Of a DNA stretch of 64,000 nt, positions 8,040 to 55,034 are shown piece by piece. The stretch is from positions 37,445-101,444 of the forward strand of contig DVIT01000016.1 in NCBI GenBank assembly GCA_018711005.1. Reading direction: 5' to 3'. The translations under genes were made by a program, and so were the position numbers. Below the pieces are notes generated by a model that saw nothing but the letters and a program-made list of their open reading frames with translations, was not told the DNA's origin and did no database searches. How positions within the stretch are numbered: position 1 is the stretch's first letter; the number at the start of each line of letters is the position of its first letter. The DNA is from Candidatus Scybalocola faecigallinarum (lineage in GTDB: Bacteria > Bacillota > Clostridia > Lachnospirales > Lachnospiraceae).

Positions 8040-8054
8040 AGGAATGAATGGAGC

Positions 8055-8966: not shown

Positions 8967-8982
8967 AGGAAGGAAGTTATTA

Positions 8983-11140: not shown

Positions 11141-11185
11141 AAGCAAGAATAATGGCACGAATGGAAAGCTCATGTTTTTTTGAGA

Positions 11186-11222
11186 AAAATCCCCAAGGCA
11201 AAGGCCCTGGGGATTTTGTTTT
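11186..11222. terminator. Bidirectional terminator of the oxidoreductase operon
   Basis: Ten-base arms AAAATCCCCA and TGGGGATTTT, followed by GTTTT on plus and by TTCTCAAAAAAA on minus. A weaker function for the convergent alcohol dehydrogenase gene is possible. Confidence 0.75.
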
Positions 11223-11244
11223 GGAAATTTACAAAATATGTGCC

Positions 11245-11266
11245 GGCAGGCGCCTAGGCACCTGCC
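11245..11266 (-). terminator. Hairpin after the alcohol dehydrogenase gene
   Basis: Arms GGCAGG/CCTGCC extended by GCC/GGC around a 2-nt loop lie 15 bases beyond the stop. The downstream tract (ATATTTTGTAAATTT) is T-rich but not a clean T-run. Confidence 0.5.
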
Positions 11267-11280
11267 GCGGTAAGATCAGA

Positions 11281-30588: not shown

Positions 30589-32502
30589 ATGAGTAAGTTT
30601 GATGCGGGGGATGGATTGTGCCATTTGGTCTTTGCCAATGATGATGATGTATATTATCTGAAAAGTTTATTAAAATTGAATCTGCGCCAGTATTTGTATT
30701 ATAAATTGAAGGAAAAAGGATATGAGGGAATTTACTTTTTATCTGGAGAAGATGGAAAATATTTTCTTACCTTTGGAGATATTTTTTCTCAGACAGTCTA
30801 TGAACGTTATGAGCAACGCTCGGCAGGTCAAAAACTGAAGAACTGGCTGTGGGGAAAAGAACAACAGGAGGATTGTTCGGGACGTTCTCTTCCGGTCAGT
30901 GATTTTATGCTCCTTCTCAGACGTGTGCTGCGGATGATGAAAGGAGAGCGGAAGCTGGCTTTTGTCTTCCAGATTGAGACATTTTTCGGCCTGTCAGATT
31001 ATCCGGAACTGATTGAAGATTTTTGCCAGGCCGGGCAGGCCAATTACAACCGGGGGCATATCCTGCTTATCCAGGCATCGGTAATGGCAGGGGGCAGCCG
31101 AAGATTTTTTACGGATTCTCAAGGGGTTTTTCAGTCCTCTCTTTTTCCTGAGATCCGTATGATTTTTAGTGAACATAAAAACGTACGAATTTATGAGAAG
31201 CTGGGTGAAGTCATGGGACAGAGAATCAGTTTCCTGAACACTCTGGAACGGGAAGCGATCCGCAGGATGGTACGGCATTTTCTCCTGGAGCAGGGAACTG
31301 CTGCGGTTTGCTTCTGGACGAAGGCAGAGGATTATACGGATGTGATATGGGGTTGGTATCATTCGGCTCAGTACCGGGACGAGGCAGGCCCTATTTTTCC
31401 GGAAAACGCGAAACGAATGATGCGTGTAATCCAGACAGGGCTTTCTGATAAAAAAGTATTTTTGAAAATGGATCGGGAGATTGACCGATTGCGCAGACTG
31501 GCAGGAGAACAGATTCCTTTAAGTCAGTGGATCAGCCAGAACTGTCTGATTGATTCCTGGCAGCGTCTGATTTATGAAGATAATGTGCTGCTCACCCGGC
31601 TGGATGGAATGGCAATTCCCCTTTCGTGGCGGCAGATTGGAGGAAGCTGGATGCGGATACTGGGACAAATCCGGGAAGAATTGAAAAAGCCAAGTACTAT
31701 GGTCCAGGATCCCGGGGAAGAATCCTATGTTTTTGAATGTATGGAACATGTGAGTCAGGCCTGTGCCAGAGAAGATTTTCTGACTATGGAGAAAGCTTTG
31801 GAAGCGCTTAACTATGGCATATGCGGGCGTTTCATCTCTCAGCAGACGGAAGATGGAGAGGCCGCAAGACGGGAATTATACCGTTCCATCATTAAAGTAT
31901 CAGAAAAATTATATGAGATAACCGGTTTTTACGAGGAGGACAGCAGGAAAATCAGTGCCTATCGGGTTCGGATGGATGCTTGTATTCAGGCGGTTCATGA
32001 CTATGAGCGGGATCATGGCCTGGAGGGAATGGATTATAGCCAATATGCCCAGGGGAAGCGGGGCAGTATTTCCCCACAGCTGCATAGTCTGGCCGCGAAA
32101 AAAACAGAAGCGCTTAACTTGCGGGATGCCATCCGCAGCGGGGAACATCTCCAGACACAGAAAGAGATGCTGATGGCCCGGTGCAGAGAGAATATCCAGA
32201 AGATGGAAATGGCCATCAGCAATATTGCTGTGGGCGGGATGGATAATTTAAAGGAAAATATGGTATATGTGGCTAAACTGGTGGAGCGCACAGCGGTAGA
32301 TAACAATATGATGATGTCAGAGCTGGCGGAGGCTTCCCGGGAAGTCCGATTTACCATGGAAGAAGCCTCAGAAATGTACTCAGAAGAAAATGAGGCAAAT
32401 CTGGCAGAGATTGAGCGGGAATTTGAAGAACTGCTTTCCGAGGAAAATTCCGAACAGGGGGAGAATAATAGAAAAGGCGGTATTGATCAATGGTTAAATT
32501 AG
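30589..32502 (+). CDS. Large protein with NTPase-like N-terminus and helical, acidic C-terminal tail; first gene of the ESCRT-like cluster
   Basis: 637 residues, no family recognised. Residues 1-170 look like a nucleotide-binding fold that has lost its P-loop: an opening strand (HLVFANDDDVYYLKSLL), a Walker-B-like strand RKLAFVFQIE at 121-130, then HILLIQAS. The middle is helical. The last 130 residues (from about 505) form long helices rich in Met, Glu and Arg that turn strongly acidic (EREFEELLSEENSEQ). This basic-to-acidic layout is also seen in the small ESCRT-III-like proteins downstream. No signal peptide or membrane segment. The Hsp70-like gene overlaps its end by 13 bases, implying coupled translation. 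Confidence 0.7.
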   Translation: MSKFDAGDGLCHLVFANDDDVYYLKSLLKLNLRQYLYYKLKEKGYEGIYFLSGEDGKYFLTFGDIFSQTVYERYEQRSAGQKLKNWLWGKEQQEDCSGRSLPVSDFMLLLRRVLRMMKGERKLAFVFQIETFFGLSDYPELIEDFCQAGQANYNRGHILLIQASVMAGGSRRFFTDSQGVFQSSLFPEIRMIFSEHKNVRIYEKLGEVMGQRISFLNTLEREAIRRMVRHFLLEQGTAAVCFWTKAEDYTDVIWGWYHSAQYRDEAGPIFPENAKRMMRVIQTGLSDKKVFLKMDREIDRLRRLAGEQIPLSQWISQNCLIDSWQRLIYEDNVLLTRLDGMAIPLSWRQIGGSWMRILGQIREELKKPSTMVQDPGEESYVFECMEHVSQACAREDFLTMEKALEALNYGICGRFISQQTEDGEAARRELYRSIIKVSEKLYEITGFYEEDSRKISAYRVRMDACIQAVHDYERDHGLEGMDYSQYAQGKRGSISPQLHSLAAKKTEALNLRDAIRSGEHLQTQKEMLMARCRENIQKMEMAISNIAVGGMDNLKENMVYVAKLVERTAVDNNMMMSELAEASREVRFTMEEASEMYSEENEANLAEIEREFEELLSEENSEQGENNRKGGIDQWLN

Positions 32503-34184
32503 GCATGGATTTTGGCAGTACATATACGATTGTCTCTGTATTTCGCGAGGATACAGGAATCCTGGAAGTGTTATCACTGGGAGAGGGGCTGCCTCCAAAT
32601 ATTCCCTCTGTGGTGGCAAAGGGAAAAGGGGAGGTATTCATTGGCTTTTCTGCTAAAAATAAGACCGGAAAAAAAGGCTATACCGTCTATAAGGCATTTA
32701 AAATGCTGTTGGCAGTGACAGATCCCGGTAAACTGGCAGAACGGGGCTACGATGAGGAAAATAATCCGGAAGAAATAACTCGTATTTTCATTGAGGGCGT
32801 TTTAAGCCAGGTCCTGGAATCTCTTCATGAGACCAAAATTGATAAGTTAGTGGTAGGCGTTCCGGAAATCTGGAACAGCAGTCTGGAAACCCTGGGCGGA
32901 AAAGCTATGCTGCGGGATATTTGTAAAAGCCTGGACTTTGTAGATCCGGACGGGGTAAAGGTTGTCAGTGAACCTGCAGCGGCAAGCGCTTACTTTGCCC
33001 ATAATTATGCGCTGAATACAAAGCAGAATTTTGAGGGCTGCATCCTGCTGGTAGATTACGGCGGCGGCACGTTGGACATTACACTGAGTAAAGTGATGAC
33101 CTCCGATGATGAGAACGGCGTTAATTCTATGGAGCTGAAAGTGTTGGAAAGGAAAGGCGCCGGAGAAAATGAAGAAGGGCGTGTGGGGGAAGCCGGTATT
33201 GTCTATATGGAGACAGTAATGGACTGGGCAATCCGCCGATCCGGTCTGACTGACGGCGAGGCGCCGGAATATGACGGCAAATTCTATCGGGCCGTGGATG
33301 ACCTGGAGATGGAGCTGCAGACCAGCATGAAGCGGATACAAAATGTATTTGAAGAATATGGATTGGATTATCTTGACGAGCTGAATGAGGAGGAATTTGC
33401 CGAGATTGAATATGGCCGTGAGGATGTTTCAGTTTCTTTCGGGCTTTTGCTGGAAGTTTACAATCAAGTGATATGGGGCGTTTTTGACCGGAAGATGGAC
33501 GAAATCATGAATTATATGGATGAAAATAATATTCGGTACATGGATGGAAGCCGGAATGATTTTAAGATTGCTTTGGTAGGTGGATTTGGAAATTTTTATT
33601 TGGTAAGAAAACAGATTCAGGATAAATTCAAGCTGGGCCATAACGATAAACGACAGGAAAGCATTATTGCAGATAAGTCAGGCTGTGAGCGGGCAGTGTC
33701 TCTGGGAGCGGCTTTGCTGGCAGCGGATGTGATCGGCATCCGGAGTACCGCGGATTTCTCCATTGGTATGTGGGCTTATGATATTGATAAGCGGATTTGC
33801 ATGAACTATGCTATTCGTTATAAACAGGAAATTGAGGTAAATAAAGTTTACTATGCCAGAAGCAGCATCGATGGGGAAGTTTTTGTCATCCAGGCAATTT
33901 CCGGCGGTTTTGATAAGTTTCTGATCAACCTGGGATCCGATGATAAATTGGCTAATTTTGGCCTATTGAAAGAAAAGTTTGCTAAAAAACTTTCAAATGT
34001 GGTGACAAATCAGTATCACACAGCTGTTGTGGGATTCTCTTTGGATCCTTCCAATGTGGTCAGCGTCCATGTGCGGGATTATGATCTGATGAAGGGAAGA
34101 ATCAGCGATGATGATCATGTCATAGAACTGACAAAGTTTAATGATCTGTTTGAGGTGGCCACAGTAGGGCCGCTGCCGAGATAA
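32490..34184 (+). CDS. Divergent Hsp70/actin-fold ATPase
   Basis: 564 residues. All nucleotide-binding elements of the Hsp70 fold are present: phosphate-1 GMDFGSTYT at 5-13, EPAAAS at 161-166, phosphate-2 VDYGGGTLDI at 188-197, and the adenosine motif VGGFGN at 363-368, so ATP hydrolysis is likely. The last 140 residues do not resemble the DnaK substrate domain and lids. They contain a beta-rich segment (FVIQAISGGFDKFLIN), so the client-binding mode is probably specific to this system. No J-domain or GrpE gene is in the cluster; a J-domain protein is encoded 23 kb upstream. Confidence 0.82.
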   Translation: MVKLGMDFGSTYTIVSVFREDTGILEVLSLGEGLPPNIPSVVAKGKGEVFIGFSAKNKTGKKGYTVYKAFKMLLAVTDPGKLAERGYDEENNPEEITRIFIEGVLSQVLESLHETKIDKLVVGVPEIWNSSLETLGGKAMLRDICKSLDFVDPDGVKVVSEPAAASAYFAHNYALNTKQNFEGCILLVDYGGGTLDITLSKVMTSDDENGVNSMELKVLERKGAGENEEGRVGEAGIVYMETVMDWAIRRSGLTDGEAPEYDGKFYRAVDDLEMELQTSMKRIQNVFEEYGLDYLDELNEEEFAEIEYGREDVSVSFGLLLEVYNQVIWGVFDRKMDEIMNYMDENNIRYMDGSRNDFKIALVGGFGNFYLVRKQIQDKFKLGHNDKRQESIIADKSGCERAVSLGAALLAADVIGIRSTADFSIGMWAYDIDKRICMNYAIRYKQEIEVNKVYYARSSIDGEVFVIQAISGGFDKFLINLGSDDKLANFGLLKEKFAKKLSNVVTNQYHTAVVGFSLDPSNVVSVHVRDYDLMKGRISDDDHVIELTKFNDLFEVATVGPLPR

Positions 34185-34199
34185 AGGATGGTGGACCAT

Positions 34200-35555
34200 A
34201 TGAGATTCAGCAGAGTTGCGACAACAATGGAAGCAATGGAAAAAAAACAGCTAGTGACGTTAAATGATGCACTGAATTTATTCCAGGATTTGTGCGAGGA
34301 TATTAAGGATGACCAAAATGTGACGGCAGATCGGCTGCCTGCAGGGGACGAGGATGAGGCGGTAACCCGGTTGGCCTGGATGTGCCGTACGATTGTGCGG
34401 ATGGCCGGTCAGCTGCCTGTGGAGAGCATTGACCGGGATAGGATGCAGCGGTTAGAAAAGGTCGAAGAAAATGTTGCCCGGATCAGTGAGCAGCTGGAAG
34501 GGGTGTCGGCAGGACTCATAACCTTGAAAGGGAAGGAAGAACAGCTGCGAACTACAGAGTCGCAGTTGGAAGAAGCGTTAAGGAAAGATAAGGCGCTGAA
34601 GGAGGAATGTGACCGGCTGGAAGCAGTTATCAGGGAGTACCGGGAGATGAAGGCTCCTGATCTCCGGACAAGAAAGGAACGGCTGGCACAGGAAAAAGCA
34701 ACGTTGCTGTCGGAATATGACGCCCTGCTGAACCAGTGCGATCAGCAGGAAGAGGATAATACCGCGTACCGTGATAAAATCTGTGAACAGAAAGCACGGT
34801 GTGAGACTTTGAAAAATACCTTTGCCCAGATGAAGGAAAACCTTGAAAAATTGGAAGAAAAATATCAGCAGCAGCAGGAACGTTATCAGGAACTGAAAGA
34901 CCAGCTGCAGCGTACAGATACCAGCAGACGCAGTCTGGTAGAGCAGATCGAAAATCTGGAACAGAGCTTGAGCCGTACAGATATGGAGAGTCTGCGCCAA
35001 CTGCTTGGGGAACGGACCATAGAGGTTCAGGCGAGGGAGCAGGAACAAAAACAGATGGAGGATGAGATCCGTCAGAAGGAAGAAGCTCTGGAACGTTTGA
35101 AAGAGACACTTGGAGAAAAAAATAAGCGGGCTCAGGAAATCACATGGGCGTCAGAAGCTGAGGAAAAGAAGGCCCGGACATCTTTGGAACTGCTGGAAAC
35201 CAGGATGAGGGAGGCAGAAGCCAGAAAACAGGAGCTTTTGTCACAGACCGTTTTGCAAGAAAAAGAAGCAGAACAGCTGGAGGAATGGTTCCGGGGACTG
35301 GAAGCTGAAAACTACAAGGATCGGCTGAAAAACAGTCAGGAACGCTTAAAGATTCTGAAAACAGCCCAGGAGAACCTGGAAGATGATCTGCAATATCTCC
35401 AGGGGCTGGCCGGAAAAGACGCAGAAGACAAACTGAGGGAATATCGTGAGTATTTCAGGGATTCTATAGAAAAGATCGCGAATGAGTTAGACCAGTATCA
35501 GAAATCGTATTTGATTGTGACAAATATTTTTGAAAATGGAGGAAATGGGCTATGA
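34200..35555 (+). CDS. Long coiled-coil protein
   Basis: 451 residues. After about 75 residues with a helical start (AMEKKQLVTLNDALNLFQDL), the protein is an almost continuous coiled coil to residue about 440, rich in Glu, Lys, Gln and Leu heptads (for example KEEQLRTTESQLEEALRKD). No membrane segment. It resembles structural coiled-coil proteins only in composition. The ATG at 34200 is chosen because AAAGGATGGTGG lies just upstream, whereas an ATG at 34188 sits within it. The next gene overlaps by four bases. Probably a scaffold or spacer for the complex. Confidence 0.75.
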   Translation: MRFSRVATTMEAMEKKQLVTLNDALNLFQDLCEDIKDDQNVTADRLPAGDEDEAVTRLAWMCRTIVRMAGQLPVESIDRDRMQRLEKVEENVARISEQLEGVSAGLITLKGKEEQLRTTESQLEEALRKDKALKEECDRLEAVIREYREMKAPDLRTRKERLAQEKATLLSEYDALLNQCDQQEEDNTAYRDKICEQKARCETLKNTFAQMKENLEKLEEKYQQQQERYQELKDQLQRTDTSRRSLVEQIENLEQSLSRTDMESLRQLLGERTIEVQAREQEQKQMEDEIRQKEEALERLKETLGEKNKRAQEITWASEAEEKKARTSLELLETRMREAEARKQELLSQTVLQEKEAEQLEEWFRGLEAENYKDRLKNSQERLKILKTAQENLEDDLQYLQGLAGKDAEDKLREYREYFRDSIEKIANELDQYQKSYLIVTNIFENGGNGL

Positions 35556-36079
35556 AATGTAACGCGTGCCAGGGAGAAATCAGCGATGGAAGGGCAAAAT
35601 GCCCGTTATGCGGTTTTCCAGTAATTCAAATGGTGGGAAATAATGAGGCGGAGATTGAAAATATCCGAAAGATGGGCCGTGATTATCTGCGGCAAAAGTT
35701 GGAGGGGATATCCATCGGCATCATGGCCTATGGATATGTGATGGGTGACGATGGGCTGCAGCTGGACCAGACGGAAGAAGTGGAAGTGGCAAAAGCAGAT
35801 GATCTTGAGATGGAGAAAGCCGTTTGGCTGGATCAGGATTTTCAGCGGCTGGATGAGGATGGGGAAGTGACCATCCATGTTTTCGCCAGAAAAAATGATA
35901 AGGTTAAAACATGGGAACTGCCAGCGCGGCTGCCAAAGATTACCGGCATGTGTCATATCGGCATAGAACTGAAAGCAGGAATGAAGGCGGAAATGCTGCT
36001 GGGAGACAGCTCCAGCTATACAGAGTCGGAAGACTTCCCGTTAGGGGAGCTTATTGGAGAGGCTGGAGGCGAGGCATAA
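35552..36079 (+). CDS. Zinc-ribbon protein with beta-rich domain
   Basis: 175 residues. The N-terminus is a four-Cys zinc ribbon (CNACQGEISDGRAKCPLCG). The rest alternates short strands and acidic turns and ends LGELIGEAGGEA; no known fold identified. No membrane segment. The ATG overlaps the end of the coiled-coil gene (ATGA). The small membrane protein gene follows three bases after its stop, which suggests the two are made together and may form a membrane-side adaptor. Confidence 0.72.
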   Translation: MKCNACQGEISDGRAKCPLCGFPVIQMVGNNEAEIENIRKMGRDYLRQKLEGISIGIMAYGYVMGDDGLQLDQTEEVEVAKADDLEMEKAVWLDQDFQRLDEDGEVTIHVFARKNDKVKTWELPARLPKITGMCHIGIELKAGMKAEMLLGDSSSYTESEDFPLGELIGEAGGEA

Positions 36080-36082
36080 AAG

Positions 36083-36556
36083 ATGGCGAGAAGGAAACAA
36101 GATCAAAAAAGAAATCCATTGGATGTGAATTTAAATCTCAGTTCTTTAGACAGCCCTTTTCGAACCATATCAAATATCAGCGCCGCTGCCGGAGTATTGG
36201 CTACGCTTTTTTGTATCGGCGGAGTAGTGATCTGGTTTTACGTTCTTGGGAGAAGCGGTGAAATTAGCCATAAGATCCTGGTGGTAGAAATCGTGGTGTC
36301 CCTGATTTTGCTGGCGCTGAACATTTTTGGTATTTGCCGGATCGGTTATGATGGTTTCTTAAAAAGTGCGGCAGCCACCGGGGTCATTCATGTGGTGCTG
36401 ACTACTATAGGGTTTTATCTGGCTGGTCTGGAGCTGATGGATGGAGCTATGAGATTTGCCATTTACCTGGGGATTGCCGCATTGATGGCGGTATTGCCAA
36501 CAATGGTAATCTCTGTAATCATGTGGGGAATTATGGCTTTATTTGGAGATGAATAA
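36083..36556 (+). CDS. Small four-helix membrane protein of the cluster
   Basis: 157 residues. A basic N-terminus (MARRKQDQKRNP) is followed by four membrane segments at about 33-55 (ISAAAGVLATLFCIGGVVIW), 65-85, 95-115 and 122-152, ending in a short acidic tail. The positive N-terminus places it inside. It is the only integral membrane protein in the cluster, so it is the best candidate for the membrane anchor of the ESCRT-like and Hsp70-like components. No family recognised. Confidence 0.72.
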   Translation: MARRKQDQKRNPLDVNLNLSSLDSPFRTISNISAAAGVLATLFCIGGVVIWFYVLGRSGEISHKILVVEIVVSLILLALNIFGICRIGYDGFLKSAAATGVIHVVLTTIGFYLAGLELMDGAMRFAIYLGIAALMAVLPTMVISVIMWGIMALFGDE

Positions 36557-36576
36557 GAAGAGAAGGAGATACAGAT

Positions 36577-37677
36577 ATGGGATTTTTAGACAGATTTAAA
36601 AAGGAGCCGGAAAAGACGCAAAAGCAGATTCTGGCGGAGGAAAAGGCTCAGGCAGCCGGTGTCCGGGCAAAGTCGGAAAATTTACTGGCAGTGATGAAAA
36701 AAGTCAATCTTTTTGATCCAACTGGACGGATTCCCAAGGAGGATGTGCAGCGTTACAAGGTTATCCTGGATAATTTATCTGACCGGTTGGATAAGGCTTC
36801 TGTCAGCGTCCTGGATACCCAGCGGATGGATGAGCAGATGGTATGGCTGACCGAGCATTTGGAAATCGCTGTCAGAGAGGGCAGAGGTGATACGGCGGAG
36901 CGTATCATAAAAGCGCTGATGTATGGCGTAGGGAGAGGGCATGAGCCGATTCCGGCCAGTGACGCGTCAAAAGCGCCTCAGATCATTCGGGAACGTGAAG
37001 ATCGTCTGAACAAGTATATTACCACCGTAGAATTTTCAGAAAAGATTGATGAACGTACCCATAGTATTGAGATGCAGCAGGAACGTTATGATAAGGCCAA
37101 AGCTCAGTTTAAGGAAGCCTATGCTAAGGTCAAACAGGAAATGCGGGAAAATCCTCATTTGGTGGAGATGATCGACCAGTATGGGGAGAAGGTAAAAGAT
37201 ATTAATGTGGATGCTTTCAAGCTGGCCCTTAAATACAGAGAGACTCAGAAATTGTATAAAGATCTGGATATGCTGAAAAAACAGATGGCCGTTAATGAGA
37301 CAACCATCAATTCCTGTCTCAATATTATCCGCAGTGTGGAAAATGCTCTGACTGAGCTGGCAACGCCGGTGACGCAGGAAATGCAGGATCGTATCATCCA
37401 GCAGGAGGCACAGTTCCGCAATCATCTGGTAGAACTGCAGAAGCAGATCACAGAGCTGAACGATCTTAGCGATCGGTTTAATTATGCCATTGACGAGGTC
37501 TTCTCCTCACCTGTGATGGGTGATTATATCATCGATGCCGCGATGCGTTTCCAGGAAATGGAGGATGAACTGGCGGCAGAGGAAGCCGGACGGCAAAGAG
37601 GCAGGGAACTGATGCGGCAGCAGGAGCTGAATAATGAAAACAGTGAGAATCAAGAACAACGGATATTAAATTCATAA
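36577..37677 (+). CDS. Helical coiled-coil protein with PspA-like N-terminus
   Basis: 366 residues, nearly all helical. The start MGFLDRFKKEPEKTQKQ recalls the amphipathic N-terminus of PspA and of eukaryotic CHMP proteins, but the rest does not match PspA in length. Three long helical stretches (about 50-110, 150-235, 245-345) and an acidic, Gln-rich end (EEAGRQRGRELMRQQE) can be seen. AAGGAGA precedes the ATG by eight bases. It lies directly upstream of the two ESCRT-III-like genes and may be a third, larger subunit or a regulator of them. Confidence 0.65.
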   Translation: MGFLDRFKKEPEKTQKQILAEEKAQAAGVRAKSENLLAVMKKVNLFDPTGRIPKEDVQRYKVILDNLSDRLDKASVSVLDTQRMDEQMVWLTEHLEIAVREGRGDTAERIIKALMYGVGRGHEPIPASDASKAPQIIREREDRLNKYITTVEFSEKIDERTHSIEMQQERYDKAKAQFKEAYAKVKQEMRENPHLVEMIDQYGEKVKDINVDAFKLALKYRETQKLYKDLDMLKKQMAVNETTINSCLNIIRSVENALTELATPVTQEMQDRIIQQEAQFRNHLVELQKQITELNDLSDRFNYAIDEVFSSPVMGDYIIDAAMRFQEMEDELAAEEAGRQRGRELMRQQELNNENSENQEQRILNS

Positions 37678-37685
37678 GGGGGAGC

Positions 37686-38369
37686 ATGACCGTGAAAATG
37701 AAACCATTATTTCCCAAAAAAGAAAATGGCAGGACGTTTGCAGTTCAAAAAAAGGAAAAGCCTTCTGTAGATCAGCAGATCATGGAGACAGGGGTCCGTC
37801 TCAGAGGGCTGCAGAGAAAATACAGGATCATCATTGACCGGGAGCTGCGGGCTCTTCGGGGAAGCCGCGCCAGAAAGCAGGATAATCCCAAGGCTGTAAA
37901 CAATCTGAAAAATGCCTATTATTGTTTAACTATAGTCAATAAAGCTCAGGAGCGTCTTAGGGAGATTACGACCCTTCAGGAACTGAGTAAGGCGATGAAT
38001 GAAATGGGATCCGTACTGAAGCTGATGAATGTGGTGTCGGGAAAAACAGAAAAAGTGAAGACCCGTGCCCTTCAGAAAGGGATCCGGGGGCTGGAAAAAG
38101 CGACCGGAAAAGATGAGGGCGGTATGTCCAATTTCTTTCAGCAGCCGCTGGATACGCTGGTGGGCGATGATATTATTGAAAGCCTGCTGAATGGTAAGTC
38201 TCTGGAGGCATGTATGGATGAACAGGAGGGCATCCAGGTGGATCCTGAGGACGCAGTCCCTCTCAGTACAGAATATCTTCAGGAACTTGGAGAATTAGAA
38301 GAAATGCCGGAAGATCAGGATCCGGAACAGATCATAGCAGATATGGAAGAAATGATGCGCTATATGTAA
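37686..38369 (+). CDS. ESCRT-III-like small helical protein A
   Basis: 227 residues. The layout is that of ESCRT-III/Snf7 proteins: basic N-terminal half, long helical hairpin, and an acidic C-terminal half ending in a short amphipathic helix (DPEQIIADMEEMMRYM, 212-227). It shares LRGLQRKYR (39-47) and AMNEMGSVLKLMN (103-115) with protein B directly downstream, so the two are paralogues. The terminal helix would be in the place of a MIT-interacting motif, and a MIT-like domain starts the ATPase two genes on. GGGGGAG is upstream; the GTG at 37692 or ATG at 37698 could also be used. The ESCRT-III assignment is inference from layout, not from a search. Confidence 0.62.
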   Translation: MTVKMKPLFPKKENGRTFAVQKKEKPSVDQQIMETGVRLRGLQRKYRIIIDRELRALRGSRARKQDNPKAVNNLKNAYYCLTIVNKAQERLREITTLQELSKAMNEMGSVLKLMNVVSGKTEKVKTRALQKGIRGLEKATGKDEGGMSNFFQQPLDTLVGDDIIESLLNGKSLEACMDEQEGIQVDPEDAVPLSTEYLQELGELEEMPEDQDPEQIIADMEEMMRYM

Positions 38370-38382
38370 AGGAGAACAGCAT

Positions 38383-38937
38383 ATGTTTGGAAAATCCAGA
38401 CCTGATCCCAAAGCCCGGGAAACCGCCATCCTTCAGTGCCGGGTCAGCCTGCGCAAGCTGCAGGCGAAATACCGGGCCATGTTAGAGCGGGAGACGCGGA
38501 TCGCCCGGGAACTGCGGGCAAAAAACATGACCAGCCCCTCAAATGACACTAAAATTAAAATCAATTATTATATGCTCCGGGAGATTGATAAAACCATGGC
38601 CCGCTTGTCAGAAATGCAGGATACTGCTCAGTTAAATGAGGCTATGAATGAATTTGCCGCTGTACTGGCATCTGTGAATAAAATGTCCGCCAAAGTGGAT
38701 AAGGCGGATGGAAAGGCAATCTCTAAAAATATAGGAAAGATGAATCAGAAGGCAGCCAAAGAGGAAGAACAGCTTTCCCGTATCTTGAACAGAATGGAGA
38801 AAAATGCGGGCTTCATAGAGATGGAACAGGAGCCGGAAGCTATTGTGAATGAGCAGACAGAACCGGCAGAGACCATGTCAGAGTCGGTTATGGACGAGAT
38901 TAACCGGTATGTGGATGAAATGATTCGAACATTATAG
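38383..38937 (+). CDS. ESCRT-III-like small helical protein B
   Basis: 184 residues. Basic first half with the hairpin motifs LRKLQAKYR (23-31) and AMNEFAAVLASVN (87-99), shared with protein A. A basic region with Lys repeats follows (about 95-128), then an acidic linker and a final amphipathic helix ESVMDEINRYVDEMIRTL (167-184). Size, charge switch and terminal helix fit the ESCRT-III pattern. AAAGGAGAA lies six bases before the ATG; only 13 bases separate it from protein A. The Vps4-like gene follows 10 bases later. In known systems such proteins polymerise on membranes and are pulled apart by Vps4. Confidence 0.65.
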   Translation: MFGKSRPDPKARETAILQCRVSLRKLQAKYRAMLERETRIARELRAKNMTSPSNDTKIKINYYMLREIDKTMARLSEMQDTAQLNEAMNEFAAVLASVNKMSAKVDKADGKAISKNIGKMNQKAAKEEEQLSRILNRMEKNAGFIEMEQEPEAIVNEQTEPAETMSESVMDEINRYVDEMIRTL

Positions 38938-38947
38938 GGGGAATATT

Positions 38948-40249
38948 ATGGACGGATATATTGAGCGGATGCAGGCAAAGGAAAATCAGTGTCTGTCATT
39001 GATCCAGCAGGCGGATGATGTGCTTGCTGCCAATGATTTTCAGCCGTCAAAGGAGGAATGTATCTACATCCAAAAGGCGGCAAACCTGCGGTATGAGATG
39101 GCCCAGATGAGCGTGGGCGAAGAAAGGCTTTATCAGCAGAGAAAGCTCCAGGAACTGAATCAGAGGATTAAAAAGATCGTGAGGGCAATTAACCCGGAAC
39201 TGTACAGACAGATGCAGGAAAACCTGCTCCGCCAAAAAGCGGAAAAAGACGCTAAAAACAGGGATCCTAAGGCCATGGAAAAGCCAGCGGCAGGGGGGTC
39301 CGGCAATGGAAAGAAAAACAGTTCATCAGGGTCAGAGATATCGGATGAGACGGTGGAATCCTGGTTTAAAGAGGCGCCAAAACATTCTTTTGCCGATGTA
39401 TCCGGCATGGCTCAGCTAAAAGAACAGCTTCGGGAATGTATTGCCGACTCTCAGCTGAATCGGCTGAAAAGCTATCTGAAAATGGATCAGCTCCATTCTT
39501 ACTTTTTTATCGGCCCGCCCGGCTGCGGAAAAACCTATATTATTGAGGCATTTGCCCATGAATTGATGGATAAGGACTATAAATATCTCTCTTTAGTGGG
39601 GTCTGACATATTAAGCCGTTTTGTAGGCGAGGCGGAAAAGATTATTACCCGATTGTTTGAGGAAGCGGAAAAAAACGCGCCTTGCATTGTATTTATTGAT
39701 GAGGTGGACGGCGTCTGCAAAAACCGTTCCCAGCCCATGCTGCCTGAGTATGCCGCTTCCCTGACTACAGCGTTCCTGACCGGCTATAACCGGATCAACA
39801 GCTCCGATAAACCGATCATTTTTATAGGAGCAACCAATTACCCCAATCAGGTGGATAATGCTATGCTGGACCGTGTGGAACTGGTCCGTGTGCCATTTCC
39901 CGATCTGGAGGCCAGAACATTTTCCTTTGCAAAGCATTTTCAGGATATGTTTACTCTGGAGGATGACTTTACGTTCCAGGATATGGCAGCGGCTACGGAT
40001 ACCTATAACTACCGGGATATTAAGCGCCTGGTTTCCAGAATTAAAAATATGGTACTGAAAGATGTGATGCAGACCTATAAAGATGAGGAAAAAGCGGTCC
40101 ATGCCCTGGAAACAGGCGAATACCGTCTGACTCGCGAGATGTTTCAGAAAGGTCAGGAAAGCTGCCTGCCTACACCAAAAGAGGATATTATTAAAGAACT
40201 GGATGAGTGGGAAGAAAAATTTAAACGGAATATCAGTGACGAGGGATAA
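38948..40249 (+). CDS. Vps4-like AAA ATPase with MIT-like N-terminal domain
   Basis: 433 residues. Residues 1-80 form about three short helices, the size and place of the MIT domain of Vps4. A flexible Gly/Ser/Lys linker (about 100-130) leads to a single AAA domain of the Vps4/katanin/spastin group. FADVSGMAQLKEQL (148-161) opens it. Walker A is GPPGCGKT (189-196), the pore-loop region SRFVGEAEKII (223-233) parallels the SKWMGESEKLV of Vps4, Walker B is CIVFIDEVD (246-254), and sensor 1 is N297 in GATNYPNQ. It should be an active ring-forming unfoldase. The C-terminus lacks a Vps4-like final helix that I can recognise. Placed right after two ESCRT-III-like genes, it is their expected disassembly motor. 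Confidence 0.8.
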   Translation: MDGYIERMQAKENQCLSLIQQADDVLAANDFQPSKEECIYIQKAANLRYEMAQMSVGEERLYQQRKLQELNQRIKKIVRAINPELYRQMQENLLRQKAEKDAKNRDPKAMEKPAAGGSGNGKKNSSSGSEISDETVESWFKEAPKHSFADVSGMAQLKEQLRECIADSQLNRLKSYLKMDQLHSYFFIGPPGCGKTYIIEAFAHELMDKDYKYLSLVGSDILSRFVGEAEKIITRLFEEAEKNAPCIVFIDEVDGVCKNRSQPMLPEYAASLTTAFLTGYNRINSSDKPIIFIGATNYPNQVDNAMLDRVELVRVPFPDLEARTFSFAKHFQDMFTLEDDFTFQDMAAATDTYNYRDIKRLVSRIKNMVLKDVMQTYKDEEKAVHALETGEYRLTREMFQKGQESCLPTPKEDIIKELDEWEEKFKRNISDEG

Positions 40250-40429: not shown

Positions 40430-43400
40430 ATGGGACCAAATAAAGAAAAAACAGGAAGAAAAGTGATGGATGGGAGCCGTTTTCTTGCCCTTTACCGTCC
40501 GGTAGTGGAGGATCTGGCCAACCTGCATGCATCCGGACAGATTCATGAAAATATCAGGCTGGAGTCTGTAGATATTCGCGGTCATCTCCGGTTTTGTTTT
40601 CCGCTGACGGAGGATGCCGCAAAGAGTTATGATACAGATCAGGAGATTTTTGTTCATCTCCTGCCGCCAAATAAAAAAGACGGCAGCAGCCTACATGACG
40701 GCAGTGATGGAGCTGCCCATATAAGTCGAAGATCCCCGTATATTCCGCTGGAACAGATGATTTACGGAGAAACGGCGGATGCCAGATCCGATGTGTACAG
40801 TCTGTGCGCTGTCTTATATCAGCTGATTACCGGGACAGAGCCGCCGGATATTCGAAAACGCATCGGCGGCGAGACACTGAAAAAACCGTCAGAGCTGGGT
40901 ATAGAGATTTCTCCTTCTCAGGAAGCGGCCCTGTTAAAAGGTCTGGAGGAATTGGGAAAGAACCGGTATGCCAACGGTGGAGAACTGTACCAGGCGCTGT
41001 ATGGGGCGGATCATAAGGAAGAAAAAGGCGAGGCTGTAAAGGCAAATACGAACAGGAAGAAAAATTATCTGCGCAGCGGATGGACTGTACAAGATGATGT
41101 GGAAGAGATCGAAGAACTGCGGACAATCACATTTCTGGATCACATTTCTCAGACTAAGGGGAAAAAATGGGACGTATCCGAGAAAAATGACGGCAGCGTG
41201 ATGGCCTGGCTGGAGGAAACGGATGGAGCGTTTGACCTGTATATCGGAAGCGATGGCGTGATCGCGGCAGGTAAGGATTGTACCGGGATGTTTAGTGGCT
41301 GTGTGAACTTGAAGCTTATTGATTTTGGCGGAAATTTTGATACCTCCAAAGTGACAGATATGTCTTATATGTTTGATGGCTGTGAGAAGCTAGAAGAATT
41401 GGATGTTAGCGGTTTTAATACTTCCCAGGTAACTATTATGGAAAATATGTTCTCGTATTGTTCTGCCTTGACTCGCCTGGATGTGAGCGGTTTTGATACT
41501 TCCAAAGTAACAAATATGACAGCTATGTTTGAAGACTGTGAGAAGCTGGAAGAACTGGATGTTAGCGGCTTTGATACTTCTCAGGTAGATATTATGGAAG
41601 ATATGTTTTATAATTGTTCCAGTCTGAAAAAGCTGGATTGGAAAGCCTTCGATATGTCCCAAGTAGAAGATTGTGCAAATATGCTGACAGGGACAAAATG
41701 GGAAGGCCAGGAAAGAAGTAAAAAAACAGAAAATATAAACATAGCAAACGAAACAACGGATAGAGAAAAAAGGGAAAAGAAGGAAAATTTTCTGCGCAGC
41801 GGGTGGACTGTAAAAAATGATGTGAAAGAAATCGAAAAGCTGAGAAGCGTTACATTTCTGGATCATATCCCTCAGACGAAGGTGAAAAAATGGGATGTGT
41901 CCGAGAAAAAAGACGGCAGCGTGCTGGCCTGGCTGGAGGAAAATGATGAGGGATATGATCTGTATATCGGAAGTGACGGCGTAATCATGGCAGGTGAGAA
42001 CTGTAGTGATATGTTTAGAGGCTGCAGTGTTTTAGAAGAAATAGATTTGAGCAACTTTGATACTTCCCGGGTGACAAATATGTCTGATATGTTTTTTAAA
42101 TGTTCCAATTTGATCAAACTGGATGTGAGCGGCTTTGATACTTCCCAGGTGACAGAGATGGATTTTATGTTTTGGAATTGTTCCAGTCTGACTAAATTGG
42201 ATGTGAGCGGCTTTGATACCGCCCAGGTGATTAACATGCAGAATATGTTTTCCTACTGTACCAATCTGGAAGAACTGGATGTTAGCGGTTTTGATACGTC
42301 CAACGTAGTTGATATGATGAATATGTTTTACAACTGTTCCAGCCTGATTCGCTTGGATGTCAGTGGTTTTGATACGTCCAGGGTTGAGAATATGAAATGC
42401 ATGTTCTCTATGTGCAGCGCTTTGGAGAAACTGGATGTGAGCGGCTTTAATACTTCCCGGGTGACAGATATGAGTTTTATGTTTGCTCAGTGTGCTAATC
42501 TGGAAGACTTAGATGTGAGCGGTTTTGATACTTCTCAAGTGACAGCTATGGAGTGGATGTTTGGTCTTTGCGCAAGACTGAAAAAGTTGGATTGGAAAAC
42601 CTTCGATATGTCAAGGGTAGAAGATTGTGCAAATATGCTGACAGGGACGAAATGGAAAGGTCAGGAAAGAAGTAAAAAAATAAAAAAGAAGGAAAATTTT
42701 CTGCGCAGCGGATGGATTGTAAAAAATGATGTGAAAGAAATCGAAAAGCTGCGAACCATTACATTCCTAGATTATATCCCTCAGACGAAGGTGAAAAAAT
42801 GGGATGTGTCTGAGAAAATGGATGGCAGTGTGCTGGCCTGGCTGGAAGAAAAAGATGGAGAATATGATTTGTATATCGGAAGCGATGGTGTGATCGTGGC
42901 AGGTGAGAGCTGCAGCAGTATGTTTAGTTACTGCAACGCTTTGGAGAAAGTGGATATGAGTGGTTTTGATACCTCCAGGGTGATAAATATGAATTACATG
43001 TTTTATAATTGTTCTAGTCTGATTAAATTGGATTTAAGCGGTTTTGATACTTCTCAGGTGACGACAATGTATAGTATGTTTAATAACTGCTTCAGTCTGG
43101 TAAGTCTGGATTTAAGTGGATTTGATACCTCTAAGGTAGAGAAAATGGGCAGGATGTTCTACAAATGTAGCACTTTGGAAGAACTGGATGTGAGCGGCTT
43201 TAATACTTCCAGGGTGATAGATATGAGTTACATGTTTTGCAGTTGTTCCAGCCTGACTAAACTGGATTTGAGTGGTTTTGATACTTCTAAAGTAACGAGA
43301 ATGACTAGTATGTTTGACGGATGTTCTAACCTGATTCGCTTGGATTTAACTGGTTTTGATACCTCACGGGTGGAGGATATGCGCTTTATGTTTTTCTGCT

Positions 43401-43585
43401 GCAGCGCTTTAAAAGAACTGGATGTGAGCAGCTTCGATACGTCCAGAGTAACTGATATGAGCTGTATGTTTTATAACTGCCGCAGTTTAAGCAAATTGGA
43501 TGTAAGTAATTTTGATACTTCCCGGGTGGAGAAGCAGCATCTTATGTTTTACAACTGTACAAGTCAGAAAAAGGTTTTGGGTTAG
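40430..43585 (+). CDS. Pseudokinase with three modules of DUF285/BspA-type repeats
   Basis: 1051 residues. Residues about 13-195 match the C-lobe of a Ser/Thr kinase (DARSDVYSLCAVLYQLITG, 117-135; SPYIPLEQ, 102-109, in the place of the APE motif). The catalytic loop reads IHEN instead of HRD, and there is no DFG and no N-lobe, so it cannot be an active kinase. Then follow three modules. Each opens with a cap (LRSGW, KKWDVSE, YDLYIGSDGVI) and carries 5, 8 and 8 units of a 26-residue DUF285/BspA-like repeat with core FDTSxVTxMxxMF. No signal peptide or anchor, unlike most BspA-like surface proteins. AGGAGG precedes the ATG. Probably a binding scaffold or receptor. Confidence 0.85.
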   Translation: MGPNKEKTGRKVMDGSRFLALYRPVVEDLANLHASGQIHENIRLESVDIRGHLRFCFPLTEDAAKSYDTDQEIFVHLLPPNKKDGSSLHDGSDGAAHISRRSPYIPLEQMIYGETADARSDVYSLCAVLYQLITGTEPPDIRKRIGGETLKKPSELGIEISPSQEAALLKGLEELGKNRYANGGELYQALYGADHKEEKGEAVKANTNRKKNYLRSGWTVQDDVEEIEELRTITFLDHISQTKGKKWDVSEKNDGSVMAWLEETDGAFDLYIGSDGVIAAGKDCTGMFSGCVNLKLIDFGGNFDTSKVTDMSYMFDGCEKLEELDVSGFNTSQVTIMENMFSYCSALTRLDVSGFDTSKVTNMTAMFEDCEKLEELDVSGFDTSQVDIMEDMFYNCSSLKKLDWKAFDMSQVEDCANMLTGTKWEGQERSKKTENINIANETTDREKREKKENFLRSGWTVKNDVKEIEKLRSVTFLDHIPQTKVKKWDVSEKKDGSVLAWLEENDEGYDLYIGSDGVIMAGENCSDMFRGCSVLEEIDLSNFDTSRVTNMSDMFFKCSNLIKLDVSGFDTSQVTEMDFMFWNCSSLTKLDVSGFDTAQVINMQNMFSYCTNLEELDVSGFDTSNVVDMMNMFYNCSSLIRLDVSGFDTSRVENMKCMFSMCSALEKLDVSGFNTSRVTDMSFMFAQCANLEDLDVSGFDTSQVTAMEWMFGLCARLKKLDWKTFDMSRVEDCANMLTGTKWKGQERSKKIKKKENFLRSGWIVKNDVKEIEKLRTITFLDYIPQTKVKKWDVSEKMDGSVLAWLEEKDGEYDLYIGSDGVIVAGESCSSMFSYCNALEKVDMSGFDTSRVINMNYMFYNCSSLIKLDLSGFDTSQVTTMYSMFNNCFSLVSLDLSGFDTSKVEKMGRMFYKCSTLEELDVSGFNTSRVIDMSYMFCSCSSLTKLDLSGFDTSKVTRMTSMFDGCSNLIRLDLTGFDTSRVEDMRFMFFCCSALKELDVSSFDTSRVTDMSCMFYNCRSLSKLDVSNFDTSRVEKQHLMFYNCTSQKKVLG

Positions 43586-43634
43586 ATGTAGTTTGGGAGT
43601 TATTGTTTTCTTTCAGATAATACTAGGAGGAAGT

Positions 43635-43668
43635 ATGGTGTCAGACAAAGAAAAAAAGGGAAAAAAAT
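43635..43668 (+). other. 11-codon start frame with A AAA AAG slippery heptamer before the second pseudokinase
   Basis: AGGAGG and an ATG at 43635 begin MVSDKEKKGKK and hit a TGA that overlaps the next ATG (43667) as ATGA. The zero-frame heptamer A AAA AAG is at 43652-43658. A -1 shift there joins the frame to the pseudokinase and restores the N-terminus seen in the paralogues. Reinitiation at 43667 is the alternative; a one-base deletion or sequencing error in the A-run is the null explanation. Confidence 0.6.
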
Positions 43669-45091
43669 GAATGGGAGCCGTTTTCTGGCGATGTATCGTC
43701 CAGTAGTTCAGGATCTGGCGATTTTGCATGCATCCGGACAGATTCATGGAAATATTAGCCCTGAAGCAGTAGATGTTCGCAGCCGTATCCGGTTTTGTTT
43801 TCCACTGACAGAGGAAGCGGCAAAGGGTTATGATACAAATCAGGAGATTTTTGTTCATCTCCTGCCGCCAAATAAAAAAGAGAACAGCAGTGAACATGAC
43901 GGCAGTATCAGAGACATACATATACGTCGAAGCCCTGCGTATATTCCTTTGGAACAGCTCATTGATGCGAAAAAGATAGACGCCAGGTCAGATGTATATA
44001 GTCTATGTGCAGTTTTATATTATCTCATTACAAAGACAGAACCTTTGGAAGTACAGGAACGCATCAGCGGAGCAGAGCTGAAAAAACCGTCAGAGATGGG
44101 GATAGAGATATCTTCCTCTCAGGAGGCGGCCCTGTTAAAAGGCTTGGAGGAAATGGGAAAGAACCGGTATGCTAACGGAGGTGAACTGTACCGGGCGCTG
44201 TATGGGGTAGCCTATGGTGAAAAAAAGGAAAAAGGTATACATAGAGAAAAAAGAAATCCGGATAGCCAAAAAACGGAGAGAAAGAAAAATTTTCTGCGTA
44301 GCGGATGGACTGTAAAAGATGATGTGAAAGAAATCGAAAAGCTGCGAAGTGTTACATTTCTGGATCATATTCCCCAGACGAAAGAGGAAAAATGGGACGT
44401 ATCTCAAGAAGAAGATGGCAGTGTGATGGCCTGGCTGGATGAGACTGATGGAGAGTATGACCTGTATATTGGAAGTGACAGCGTAATCGTAGCAGGGAAA
44501 AATTGTTCGTGGATGTTTCAGAACTGTAGTAACCTGAAGTCCATTACTTTTGATGAGAACTTTGACACTTCCGAGGTAATGGATATGAGCTACATGTTTT
44601 TCGGATGCAGCGCTTTAGAGGAATTAGATGTGAGAAGTTTTGATACTTCCCATGTGACAAGTATGAATTACATGTTTGCCAACTGTTCTAGGCTGAGCAG
44701 ATTGAAAGTGAGTGGCTTTGATACTTCTCGGGTAACTAGAATGTCTGGGATGTTTTCGGGATGTTCCAGATTGACCAAATTGAATGTAAGCAATTTTGAT
44801 ACCTCACAGGTGACCGATATGAGTTTCATGTTTTATAACTGTTCCAACCTAAGCAGACTGGATATAGAAGGTTTTGATACTTCACGGGTGAAGAAGATGA
44901 GAAGTATGTTCTATGGATGCAACGCTGTATTGAATGTGAGCGGCTTTGATACATCTAAGGTGACAGATGTTAGTCCCATGTTTAGTAACTGTGCTATAAA
45001 CGGGGCGATTCCCGGATCGAACAGACATAGTTTGAGAAATGCTTTTTATTCAGAAGATTACAGGAGGAAGTATGACATCAGAAAAAGATGA
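43667..45091 (+). CDS. Pseudokinase with one DUF285/BspA-type repeat module
   Basis: 474 residues from the ATG at 43667. Same architecture as the preceding gene but with one module of six repeats. The catalytic loop is IHGN in LHASGQIHGNISPEAVDV, so it too lacks the catalytic Asp, and the N-lobe is absent. DARSDVYSLCAVLYYLI and the cap LRSGWTVKDDVKEIEKL are intact. The C-terminus leaves the repeat pattern after NCAINGAIPGS, so the last unit is probably damaged or a cap. Its real start may be at 43635 through a frameshift. The next gene overlaps its last 20 bases. Confidence 0.82.
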   Translation: MNGSRFLAMYRPVVQDLAILHASGQIHGNISPEAVDVRSRIRFCFPLTEEAAKGYDTNQEIFVHLLPPNKKENSSEHDGSIRDIHIRRSPAYIPLEQLIDAKKIDARSDVYSLCAVLYYLITKTEPLEVQERISGAELKKPSEMGIEISSSQEAALLKGLEEMGKNRYANGGELYRALYGVAYGEKKEKGIHREKRNPDSQKTERKKNFLRSGWTVKDDVKEIEKLRSVTFLDHIPQTKEEKWDVSQEEDGSVMAWLDETDGEYDLYIGSDSVIVAGKNCSWMFQNCSNLKSITFDENFDTSEVMDMSYMFFGCSALEELDVRSFDTSHVTSMNYMFANCSRLSRLKVSGFDTSRVTRMSGMFSGCSRLTKLNVSNFDTSQVTDMSFMFYNCSNLSRLDIEGFDTSRVKKMRSMFYGCNAVLNVSGFDTSKVTDVSPMFSNCAINGAIPGSNRHSLRNAFYSEDYRRKYDIRKR

Positions 45092-46748: not shown

Positions 46749-46766
46749 ATATAGAAAATAGAAAAT

Positions 46767-46900
46767 CGGAGAAGAAGAAAAATTCCATCCGCAGCGGATG
46801 GAATGCAAAGAATGGATCTATATATCGGAAACGACGGCGTGATTATGGCAGGTGAGAATTGCAGTAATATGTTTCGTGTTTGTGAGTTGTTATCTGCCAG
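46767..46900 (+). pseudogene. Remnant of a cap module between two pseudokinase genes
   Basis: Two short frames encode recognisable fragments of the repeat-module cap: KKKNSIRSGWNAKN, then after a frame change DLYIGNDGVIMAGENCSNMF. About 35 residues that separate these parts in intact modules are missing. The fragment ends just before the duplicated AGAAGATTACAGGAGG that starts the next gene. It is what remains of a deleted or recombined paralogue. Confidence 0.8.
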
Positions 46901-46918
46901 AAGATTACAGGAGGAAGT

Positions 46919-48277: not shown

Positions 48278-48373
48278 AATTTGTGTAACTGGTTGCGCGG
48301 TGTGTTCTGCTGTCGGTACAAATCACAGGAATTGTACATCGGAGGCGAACCGTGCTGGGAGGCAGGATAGAAG

Positions 48374-49603: not shown

Positions 49604-50659
49604 ATGAGCCAATGGCTTTCAACCTATCGCGCCCTCGTGCCGGACTATGGACTGTCCCGGCTGTGCGGCTGCAGTTATTGGAAATCGGTTTTTGGGGCCT
49701 GCGTTCCTGATCCTGAGTTGGACAGGCAGTTTAGCATTCCCTCAACCCACGCTTTTTTTCTGTATGGAGCGGAGGGAAATGGAAAAAGAACGCTGGCCGG
49801 CGCGCTGGCAGCTGATTTAGTGAAGAAAGACTACTTATTTTCCCGGATTCCCGGGGGTGATTTGGCAGGGGAAAATGAAGCGGAGACTGCAGAGAATATC
49901 TCAGCGCTGCTGGAAGAAATTCCCGGCGCAATAGGGGCAGATACAGCCGGTGTGTGCGTACTGATTGAGGACTTCCAGTTCCTGGTGGAAGATAAAAAAA
50001 CGGTCAGGGCTCTGGAAACAGGTCTGGAGCGGCTTATGAACCATCAGGCGTCTTGTGTGATTATTGGTGTGGCAGAAACCAGAGAACATTATCCCGCCAG
50101 ACTGGAAAAGCTGATGCTGCCCTGTCCGATCGGCCTTCCGGATGAGAAGGAACGGCGGGAATATCTGGAACGGGCCATGGAGGATGACCTGCCTCATGAG
50201 CATGGACTGTCCTATAAAAAAATGGCGGAGATGACAGAGGGACTGAATTATGATAAGCTGGATAAGTTAATCGGATTAGCGGCTATGTTGCTGAAGCAGC
50301 GGATGAAATTCCTCTTTGGAAAGAACCGGGAACAGATGGCAGTGGCCCGACGGCAGGGACTGGTTTTTATTACAGAAGAAATGTTTCGGCAGATGGTAGA
50401 ACATTTACTATCGGGTATCCGCCAGACAGATATGACACAGTGCTTCCAGCCGTTGGCCGGCGCTGTGCCTGTAATGCACGGACAGGCGGCAGGAACAGGC
50501 GGTAGAATACCTGGTTTGAAAAGCGAATGGACTGGCCTGCCCGAGACTGAAAATGGTAAGACAGGTCTGAATGATACGGACAGAGAACTGGAGACTGAAC
50601 TGGGACAGGGACGAAGTATGATGGATATGATGGATGATTTGGATCTAGATGAGTTATAA
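49604..50659 (+). CDS. Degenerate AAA-type ATPase
   Basis: 351 residues. The fold is AAA-like: strand FFLYGAEGNGKRT, where the Walker A has GKR instead of GKT/S (the Thr is displaced by one), and Walker B VCVLIEDFQF with ED instead of DE. The sensor region CVIIGVAETREHYPARLEKL and a helical lid follow. The C-terminal 70 residues are low complexity and end acidic (MMDMMDDLDLDEL). Catalysis is doubtful. It may be an inactive partner ring subunit or adaptor for the Vps4-like ATPase; that is inference. GGAGGAGAAAT precedes the ATG. Confidence 0.7.
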   Translation: MSQWLSTYRALVPDYGLSRLCGCSYWKSVFGACVPDPELDRQFSIPSTHAFFLYGAEGNGKRTLAGALAADLVKKDYLFSRIPGGDLAGENEAETAENISALLEEIPGAIGADTAGVCVLIEDFQFLVEDKKTVRALETGLERLMNHQASCVIIGVAETREHYPARLEKLMLPCPIGLPDEKERREYLERAMEDDLPHEHGLSYKKMAEMTEGLNYDKLDKLIGLAAMLLKQRMKFLFGKNREQMAVARRQGLVFITEEMFRQMVEHLLSGIRQTDMTQCFQPLAGAVPVMHGQAAGTGGRIPGLKSEWTGLPETENGKTGLNDTDRELETELGQGRSMMDMMDDLDLDEL

Positions 50660-50692
50660 AGAGTATAGTAAAATGGACATGAGGTGACAGAA

Positions 50693-55007: not shown

Positions 55008-55034
55008 TGACCAGAATGAGTGGAGGAATCAGAT

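Follow-up and report, generated by a model that had tools for sequence, protein, structure and literature searches.

The ESCRT-III proteins established in bacteria are PspA and Vipp1, which share the alpha1/alpha2-alpha3 hairpin (PMC8281802). According to a 2023 review, a bacterium tends to carry just one ESCRT-III homologue of this kind and no clear homologue of the ATPase Vps4 (PMC7615534). In the archaeal case, ESCRT-III paralogues with a C-terminal Vps4-binding motif are accompanied by a dedicated ATPase, and CdvA and CdvB recruit the others (PMC12818579). The 2024 survey of Ravi and others reports bacterial Vps4-like ATPases that have another gene in the place of snf7, other AAA+ ATPases with PspA or Snf7-like genes nearby, and transfer of archaeal Vps4-like ATPases into bacteria (PMC11237479). 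Here we describe a locus in a stretch of 64,000 nucleotides (the window) from contig DVIT01000016.1 of Candidatus Scybalocola faecigallinarum, a member of the Lachnospiraceae. It encodes two small paralogous proteins, P1 and P2, followed by an AAA ATPase, and we lean somewhat towards reading the three as a bacterial ESCRT-III/Vps4-like machine. An original prediction made from this DNA had proposed such a machine. It had also stated that bacterial ESCRT-III proteins are not known beside a dedicated Vps4-type ATPase, which is not entirely accurate in view of the PspA and Snf7-like genes of the 2024 survey; the present set does not appear in the section of that survey that deals with them. In its main text the words Hsp70 and DnaK are absent, as are Hsp70, ESCRT and Vps4 in the main text of a 2026 survey of BREX (PMC12839542). 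A search of open-licence papers found no description of this gene set.

P1 and P2 are paralogues with ESCRT-III-like features

P1, P2 and the ATPase are the last three of nine consecutive genes that share a strand (30589-40249); neighbours overlap by at most 13 bp or lie at most 20 bp apart. The order is o637, Hsp70-like ATPase, CC455, zinc-ribbon-like protein, TM157, CC366, P1, P2 and AAA (Table 1). The three reading frames were found where the original prediction had placed them and on the same strand, with the motifs it had listed: LRGLQRKYR and AMNE in P1, LRKLQAKYR and AMNE in P2, and SRFVGEAEKII and CIVFIDEVD in the ATPase. That they form a stray trio can be rejected, as they belong to a conserved operon.

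An ungapped alignment of P1 and P2 over 122 residues shows 34% identity (E 3e-20 in a single comparison), which confirms their paralogy and rules out a likeness by chance. Net charge per 40 residues runs +6, +8, +2, +2, -11 and -9 (last 27 residues) in P1 and +7, +2, +2, -5 and -4 (last 24) in P2. The predicted switch from basic to acidic is thus present in both, the N-terminal half being basic and the C-terminal half acidic, as is characteristic of ESCRT-III proteins. The short C-terminal helix announced for both proteins was recovered in the model of P1 (residues 213-226, at a predicted local distance difference test score, pLDDT, below 50); for P2 it is the last ~14 residues that are conserved among P2-type proteins, after a linker of highly variable length. 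Such a charge switch, together with a conserved C-terminal segment behind a variable linker, fits ESCRT-III proteins. The P2 tail is not an exact match to the MIM1 consensus.

AlphaFold2 places helices in P1 at residues 28-62, 68-91, 97-117, 127-139 and 213-226, the two C-terminal ones scoring below 50 in pLDDT, and an ESCRT-III-like hairpin is predicted with low confidence. ESCRT-III proteins, CdvB2 and CdvB among them, make up 22 of the 50 best structural matches of this model and are the most frequent named family. At the sequence level, we compared a profile of P1/P2 with six ESCRT-III sequences using hhalign; the profile came from a 50-row alignment that excludes P0011 (the window's own) and, for partial coverage, P0016, P0025 and P0028. 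The score was 28.3 over 86 columns (P 6e-4, probability 28%), and the AMNE motif was placed over the AMQE/TMKN stretch of Snf7 and Shrub. Omitting the four Ruminococcus-type rows gave 26.3. Seven other profiles from the locus scored 6.9-16.7 over at most 57 columns against the same sequences, and the reversed P1/P2 profile scored 13.0. Shuffled profiles reached 28.3 in 0/200 cases with blocks of 7, 0/100 with blocks of 11, 1/200 with blocks of 18 and 11/200 with blocks of 30. Taken alone, the P1-type rows scored 19.8 (reached by 3/100 shuffles), the P2-type rows 22.4 (1/100) and the Ruminococcus-type rows 18.3 over 36 columns. We regard the sequence-profile support for P1/P2 as ESCRT-III proteins as modest.

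By sequence, neither the PDB nor the Pfam lists of the two proteins contained a significant ESCRT-III match. The Pfam Snf7 model found nothing in the window; it passes its cut-off in none of 14 control genomes, Sulfolobus acidocaldarius included. PspA_IM30 is missing from the full Pfam lists of both proteins, and at E 0.001 the genome of the window, 98.5% complete, is without a match to it; the same model matches in nine of the 14 control genomes. P1 and P2 as classical PspA/Vipp1 proteins were rejected, since neither they nor the genome match PspA_IM30.

The ATPase combines a predicted MIT-like domain with a Vps4-like AAA domain

The N-terminal domain of the ATPase was modelled by AlphaFold2 at pLDDT 95.1, with helices at residues 4-28, 35-54, 57-81 and 83-95. 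MIT domains are the most frequent kind among its structural matches (24 of the 50 best in the PDB), the third-best being the MIT domain of an archaeal Vps4; SRP, 14-3-3 and TPR rows occur as well. We predict an MIT-like fold for this domain with high confidence, so that in predicted fold its N-terminus agrees with that of Vps4. By sequence no such domain was recovered: Pfam MIT finds nothing in it, and comparison with three Vps4 MIT sequences (hhalign) gave 15.6, equalled by 12 of 100 shuffles. The alignment of the domain built from relatives used 84 of 120 listed proteins (of 1184), and a 14-row alignment omits loci L019, L027 and L030.

The AAA domain has intact Walker A (GPPGCGKT) and Walker B (FIDEVD) motifs, and all 16 aligned rows share R309 of the arginine-finger loop. 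Against references from five families with two sequences each, a set without katanin, the profile scored highest with Vps4 (230.6), followed by CDC48 D2 (211.4), FtsH (189.3), CDC48 D1 (182.7) and spastin (168.6). The best single-domain score in the PDB is that of Vps4B (115.0, against 97.3 for Cdc48); scores for the whole protein favour the two-domain Cdc48 (178.8), and among NCBIfam models CDC48 (119.9) stands slightly above CdvC (111.0). The arginine-finger loop has 10 residues; that of Vps4 and spastin has 11, and that of CDC48 and FtsH has 13. Identity to Vps4 is ~32%. The C-terminal stretch around W421, also invariant in 16 rows, lies over the C-terminal helices of both Vps4 and spastin in global alignments, and Vps4_C is not among the best 25 of 32 Pfam rows, that is, it has no match below about E 0.08. 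In a 32-row tree the ATPases of the module join Vps4 and spastin with support 73/89, on a branch of 3.18 that carries a long-branch warning. The ATPase alignment and the tree omit locus L030, where the contig ends within the gene.

The module is rare and travels as a set

A scan with the ATPase of 84,980 species genomes (one per species) gave at least 16 further loci, L013 and L020 being one locus that is counted once. The titles of 15 name a Bacillota lineage (Lachnospiraceae, Oscillospiraceae, Ruminococcus, other or unplaced Clostridia) and one reads 'uncultured bacterium'. In metagenomes, 1184 relatives of the ATPase were found at E <=1e-10, and the best 120 of these 1184 are at least 52% identical. 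In all 16 further loci the ATPase is immediately preceded by P1 or a remote homologue, with or without an intervening P2. P1 was recognised by clear similarity in 12 and as a remote homologue in the remaining four, L026-L029 (E 1e-10 to 3e-9 in a profile search, calculated for a set size of 1000; profile-comparison probability 97%). The second copy, P2, is present in seven.

By tblastn the gene order is retained across these loci; several of the contigs end early. The Hsp70-like gene is found in 15 of 16 (32-91% identity), CC455 also in 15 (several matches weak), the zinc-ribbon-like gene in 13, CC366 in 12 and TM157 in nine. A homologue of o637 occurs in 13, two of them weak (E about 1e-12), and in the other three the contig is too short upstream of the Hsp70 gene. 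AAA2 lies downstream of the ATPase in 10; in the window it is displaced from it by the kinase-like/DUF285 genes.

Counting co-occurrence within the family had been suggested together with the original prediction. In 348 genomes of the family of the window, the N-domain profile and the P1/P2 profile each match three genomes, the same three, and no genome has just one of them. A genome of the same genus (G067) matches neither profile. Among 391 genomes of the class, the P1/P2 profile matches the window genome only, and the N-domain profile has one added chance match; among 295 genomes of the order, CC366 matches the window genome only. Two matches were taken as chance after inspection by eye, a V-type ATPase subunit in G031 and a repressor-like reading frame in G529. 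A single scan of viral contigs gave no relatives.

A possible ESCRT-III/Vps4-like machine

Under the reading that we favour, P1 and P2 would assemble on the inner side of the membrane into a composite polymer. The ATPase would grip their C-terminal tails through its MIT-like N-domain and extract subunits as Vps4 does, thereby reshaping the membrane. Polymerisation, membrane binding and tail capture are what we infer for the three proteins. The rest of the operon may tether the polymer and control it: CC366 would take the place that CdvA has in the archaeal cluster, TM157, where present, could be the membrane anchor of the complex, and the Hsp70-like protein might act as a regulator or subunit chaperone that controls the supply of subunits. 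Membrane repair and the response to phages are the main candidate purposes.

This proposal is carried by the MIT-like N-domain, by Vps4 as the closest of the five reference families, by ESCRT-III as the leading family for P1 and by the adjacency in all 16 loci. Several observations temper it. The P1 model has a pLDDT of 61, which is low, and Foldseek with this model gave no significant match (best E 1.2). Compared with the P1/P2 profile, the C-terminal part of CC366 reached 24.8 over 49 columns, the CC366 profile itself having no match to ESCRT-III; therefore either CC366 is a distant relative of P1/P2, or such scores occur between helical families. TM157 is absent from seven of the 16 loci. 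In the tree, alternative placements of the ATPases with CDC48 D1, CDC48 D2 or FtsH have p-values of 0.321, 0.373 and 0.305 in the approximately unbiased test (p-AU) and none is rejected. Because of this we call the ATPase Vps4-like, with its clade open, and do not assign it to the Vps4 family proper. The original prediction had named two results that would speak against it, a fold of P1/P2 other than the hairpin and an ATPase outside the Vps4/katanin/spastin clade. Neither was seen, at the stated confidence of the P1 model and with the alternatives of the tree kept.

If the reading is correct, two ESCRT-III-like paralogues with an MIT-like AAA ATPase in Clostridia would break the rule of a single homologue and no Vps4 that the 2023 review describes (PMC7615534). 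The antiquity of Vps4-driven turnover of composite ESCRT-III polymers would become testable in bacteria, as would the way in which such polymers act without internal membranes. A bolder version would be that some Clostridia have a complete two-subunit ESCRT-III/Vps4 machine, with an MIT-domain ATPase and a dedicated Hsp70-like ATPase, and that one branch of it joined BrxL and seals or cuts the membrane upon phage attack; we consider this version doubtful.

BrxL and alternative explanations

The next gene after the ATPase is brxL in four of the 16 further loci, the Ruminococcus-type ones. The protein of L029 matches Pfam BrxL_ATPase at 1e-114 and PADLOC BrxL at 1e-200, and shares 67-71% identity with the other three. 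Because of this adjacency in four loci, a defence role for the module is possible, though no more than that. PglX, PglZ and BrxC/PglY, which would stand beside BrxL in BREX, were not found in the window proteins scanned (nine with Pfam, seven with PADLOC), and the few scanned proteins of L028 and L029 gave no other BREX core gene, save a PglZ match of E 0.037 on the o637 homologue of L028. In L029 the gene after BrxL has a weak IetS match (PADLOC E 0.009).

The operon could accordingly be an anti-phage system, with ESCRT-like or merely AAA parts that sense or seal phage-damaged membrane. Besides BrxL, its sporadic occurrence in three of 348 family genomes, and not in the genome of the same genus, would fit this. 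We nevertheless hold it to be unlikely, as BrxL is found neither in the window nor in the other 12 loci within the sequence stretches examined, the PADLOC matches of seven window proteins were judged to go no further than the superfamily (the best, IetA on the ATPase, at 5.9e-25), the flanks of the eight loci listed are ordinary-looking genes by eye, and the scan of viral contigs was without relatives. Somewhat less doubtful is that P1 and P2, as helical proteins, serve a bacterial AAA unfoldase as adaptors or substrates, the unfoldase working with the Hsp70-like protein in protein quality control, with no membrane remodelling, although we do not expect it. The Hsp70-like gene is indeed more constant than TM157 (15 against nine loci), CDC48 models match the ATPase too, three-helix bundles are common, as the SRP, 14-3-3 and TPR matches of the N-domain illustrate, and the PDB and Pfam lists hold no significant ESCRT-III match for P1/P2. 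The membrane protein encoded within the window operon, the predominance of MIT and ESCRT-III among the structural matches of the N-domain and P1, and the higher score of the AAA domain with Vps4 than with CDC48 argue in the other direction. Finally, the order of a helical protein, an ESCRT-III-like protein and a Vps4-like ATPase resembles cdvA-cdvB-cdvC, and the transfers of archaeal ATPases mentioned above (PMC11237479) could suggest that the module came whole from archaea and did not evolve within bacteria. This seems quite improbable given the very long branch of the ATPase, its low identity to Vps4 and the fact that all carriers with a taxon name are Bacillota, the tree being one without archaeal ATPases.

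Other genes of the operon and its neighbourhood

Pfam found nothing below E 0.02 in o637, and the Zn_Ribbon_1 match of the zinc-ribbon-like protein is weak (E 0.09, below the cut-off). The zinc-ribbon gene occurs as a side-by-side duplicate in L017 (6802-7640, two tblastn matches) and L029 (3892-4873, first copy by eye). In the L013/L020 locus CC366 is present twice, and there is a further ATPase-like gene that is truncated and lacks the MIT-like domain (7166-9108, 11143-11691).

Table 1. Position of the operon genes, their proposed domains and associated genes. Coordinates are those of the window unless a locus is named.
Feature	Coordinates	Strand	Basis
o637, family of unknown function, operon gene 1	30589..32502	+	ORF
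Hsp70-like ATPase, 564 aa	32490..34184	+	Pfam HSP70 E 1.5e-8
CC455, coiled-coil protein	34188..35555	+	Matches solely of coiled-coil type
Zinc-ribbon-like small protein	35552..36079	+	N-terminal CxxC..CxxC motif in sequence
TM157, small membrane protein	36083..36556	+	ORF; ~four hydrophobic helices by eye
CC366, helical protein, N-terminus MGFLDRF	36577..37677	+	ORF; upstream of P1
P1, putatively ESCRT-III-like, constant member of the pair, 227 aa	37686-38369	+	Loci, AlphaFold2, structural matches
P2, putatively ESCRT-III-like P1 paralogue, 184 aa	38383-38937	+	Sequence identity to P1
P2 C-terminal segment (DEINRYVDEMIRTL region), proposed MIT-interacting tail	38896..38934	+	Conserved in P2-type rows; helix and role putative
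AAA ATPase, whole gene, 433 aa	38948-40249	+	ORF
Predicted MIT-like N-terminal domain of the ATPase, residues 1-96	38948..39235	+	AlphaFold2 and structural matches
AAA domain and C-terminal helix region, Vps4-like ATPase	39365..40249	+	Pfam AAA 9.8e-30; best reference Vps4
AAA2, degenerate AAA protein	49604..50659	+	Pfam AAA E 1e-4
BrxL directly after the ATPase	L026:8033-9505; L027:11693-13156; L028:11685-13142; L029:11744-13222		

Downstream of the module in the window are six tandem genes (40430-49549 and 50684-52240), each of which opens with a protein-kinase domain piece by eye. Five of them run, by eye, into DUF285 repeats ('FDTS.VT.M..MF') and the sixth, of 391 aa (48374-49549), into BspA-type LRR. 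Pfam, run on two of the six, gave DUF285 at 2e-138 and no kinase for the first gene, and Pkinase at 2.6e-7, just under the cut-off, plus LRR_5 for the 391-aa gene. Sequence resembling these kinase-like genes is also found near the module in L015-L019. Further downstream lies a MATE-type transporter gene by eye (55020-56408), and since a similar gene follows the module in L013 (12749-14128), from Candidatus Scybalocola, this suggests a common chromosomal site.

Comparison with known systems

With BREX the module shares BrxL, which stands beside the module's ATPase in four of the 16 further loci; it differs in that the proteins scanned included no recognisable PglX, PglZ or BrxC. The sets described by Ravi and others (PMC11237479) are alike in that an ESCRT-III-type gene adjoins an AAA+ ATPase in bacteria; as far as that survey describes them, they differ in having a Vps4-like ATPase without snf7, or a PspA whose partner has two AAA domains. 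PspA and Vipp1 are likewise bacterial proteins of the ESCRT-III superfamily with the hairpin, which for P1 is a low-confidence prediction. They are usually described as single copy and without a clear Vps4, whereas P1 and P2 are paired, adjoin an ATPase and lack a PspA_IM30 match. The archaeal Cdv system (CdvA, CdvB paralogues and CdvC/Vps4) likewise has ESCRT-III-like paralogues with a dedicated ATPase that carries an MIT or MIT-like domain, and CC366 occupies the position of cdvA in the cdvA-cdvB-cdvC cluster, to which we liken it by position. Compared with Cdv, the module of the window is bacterial, the clade of its ATPase is open, and it adds Hsp70-like, zinc-ribbon-like and membrane proteins.

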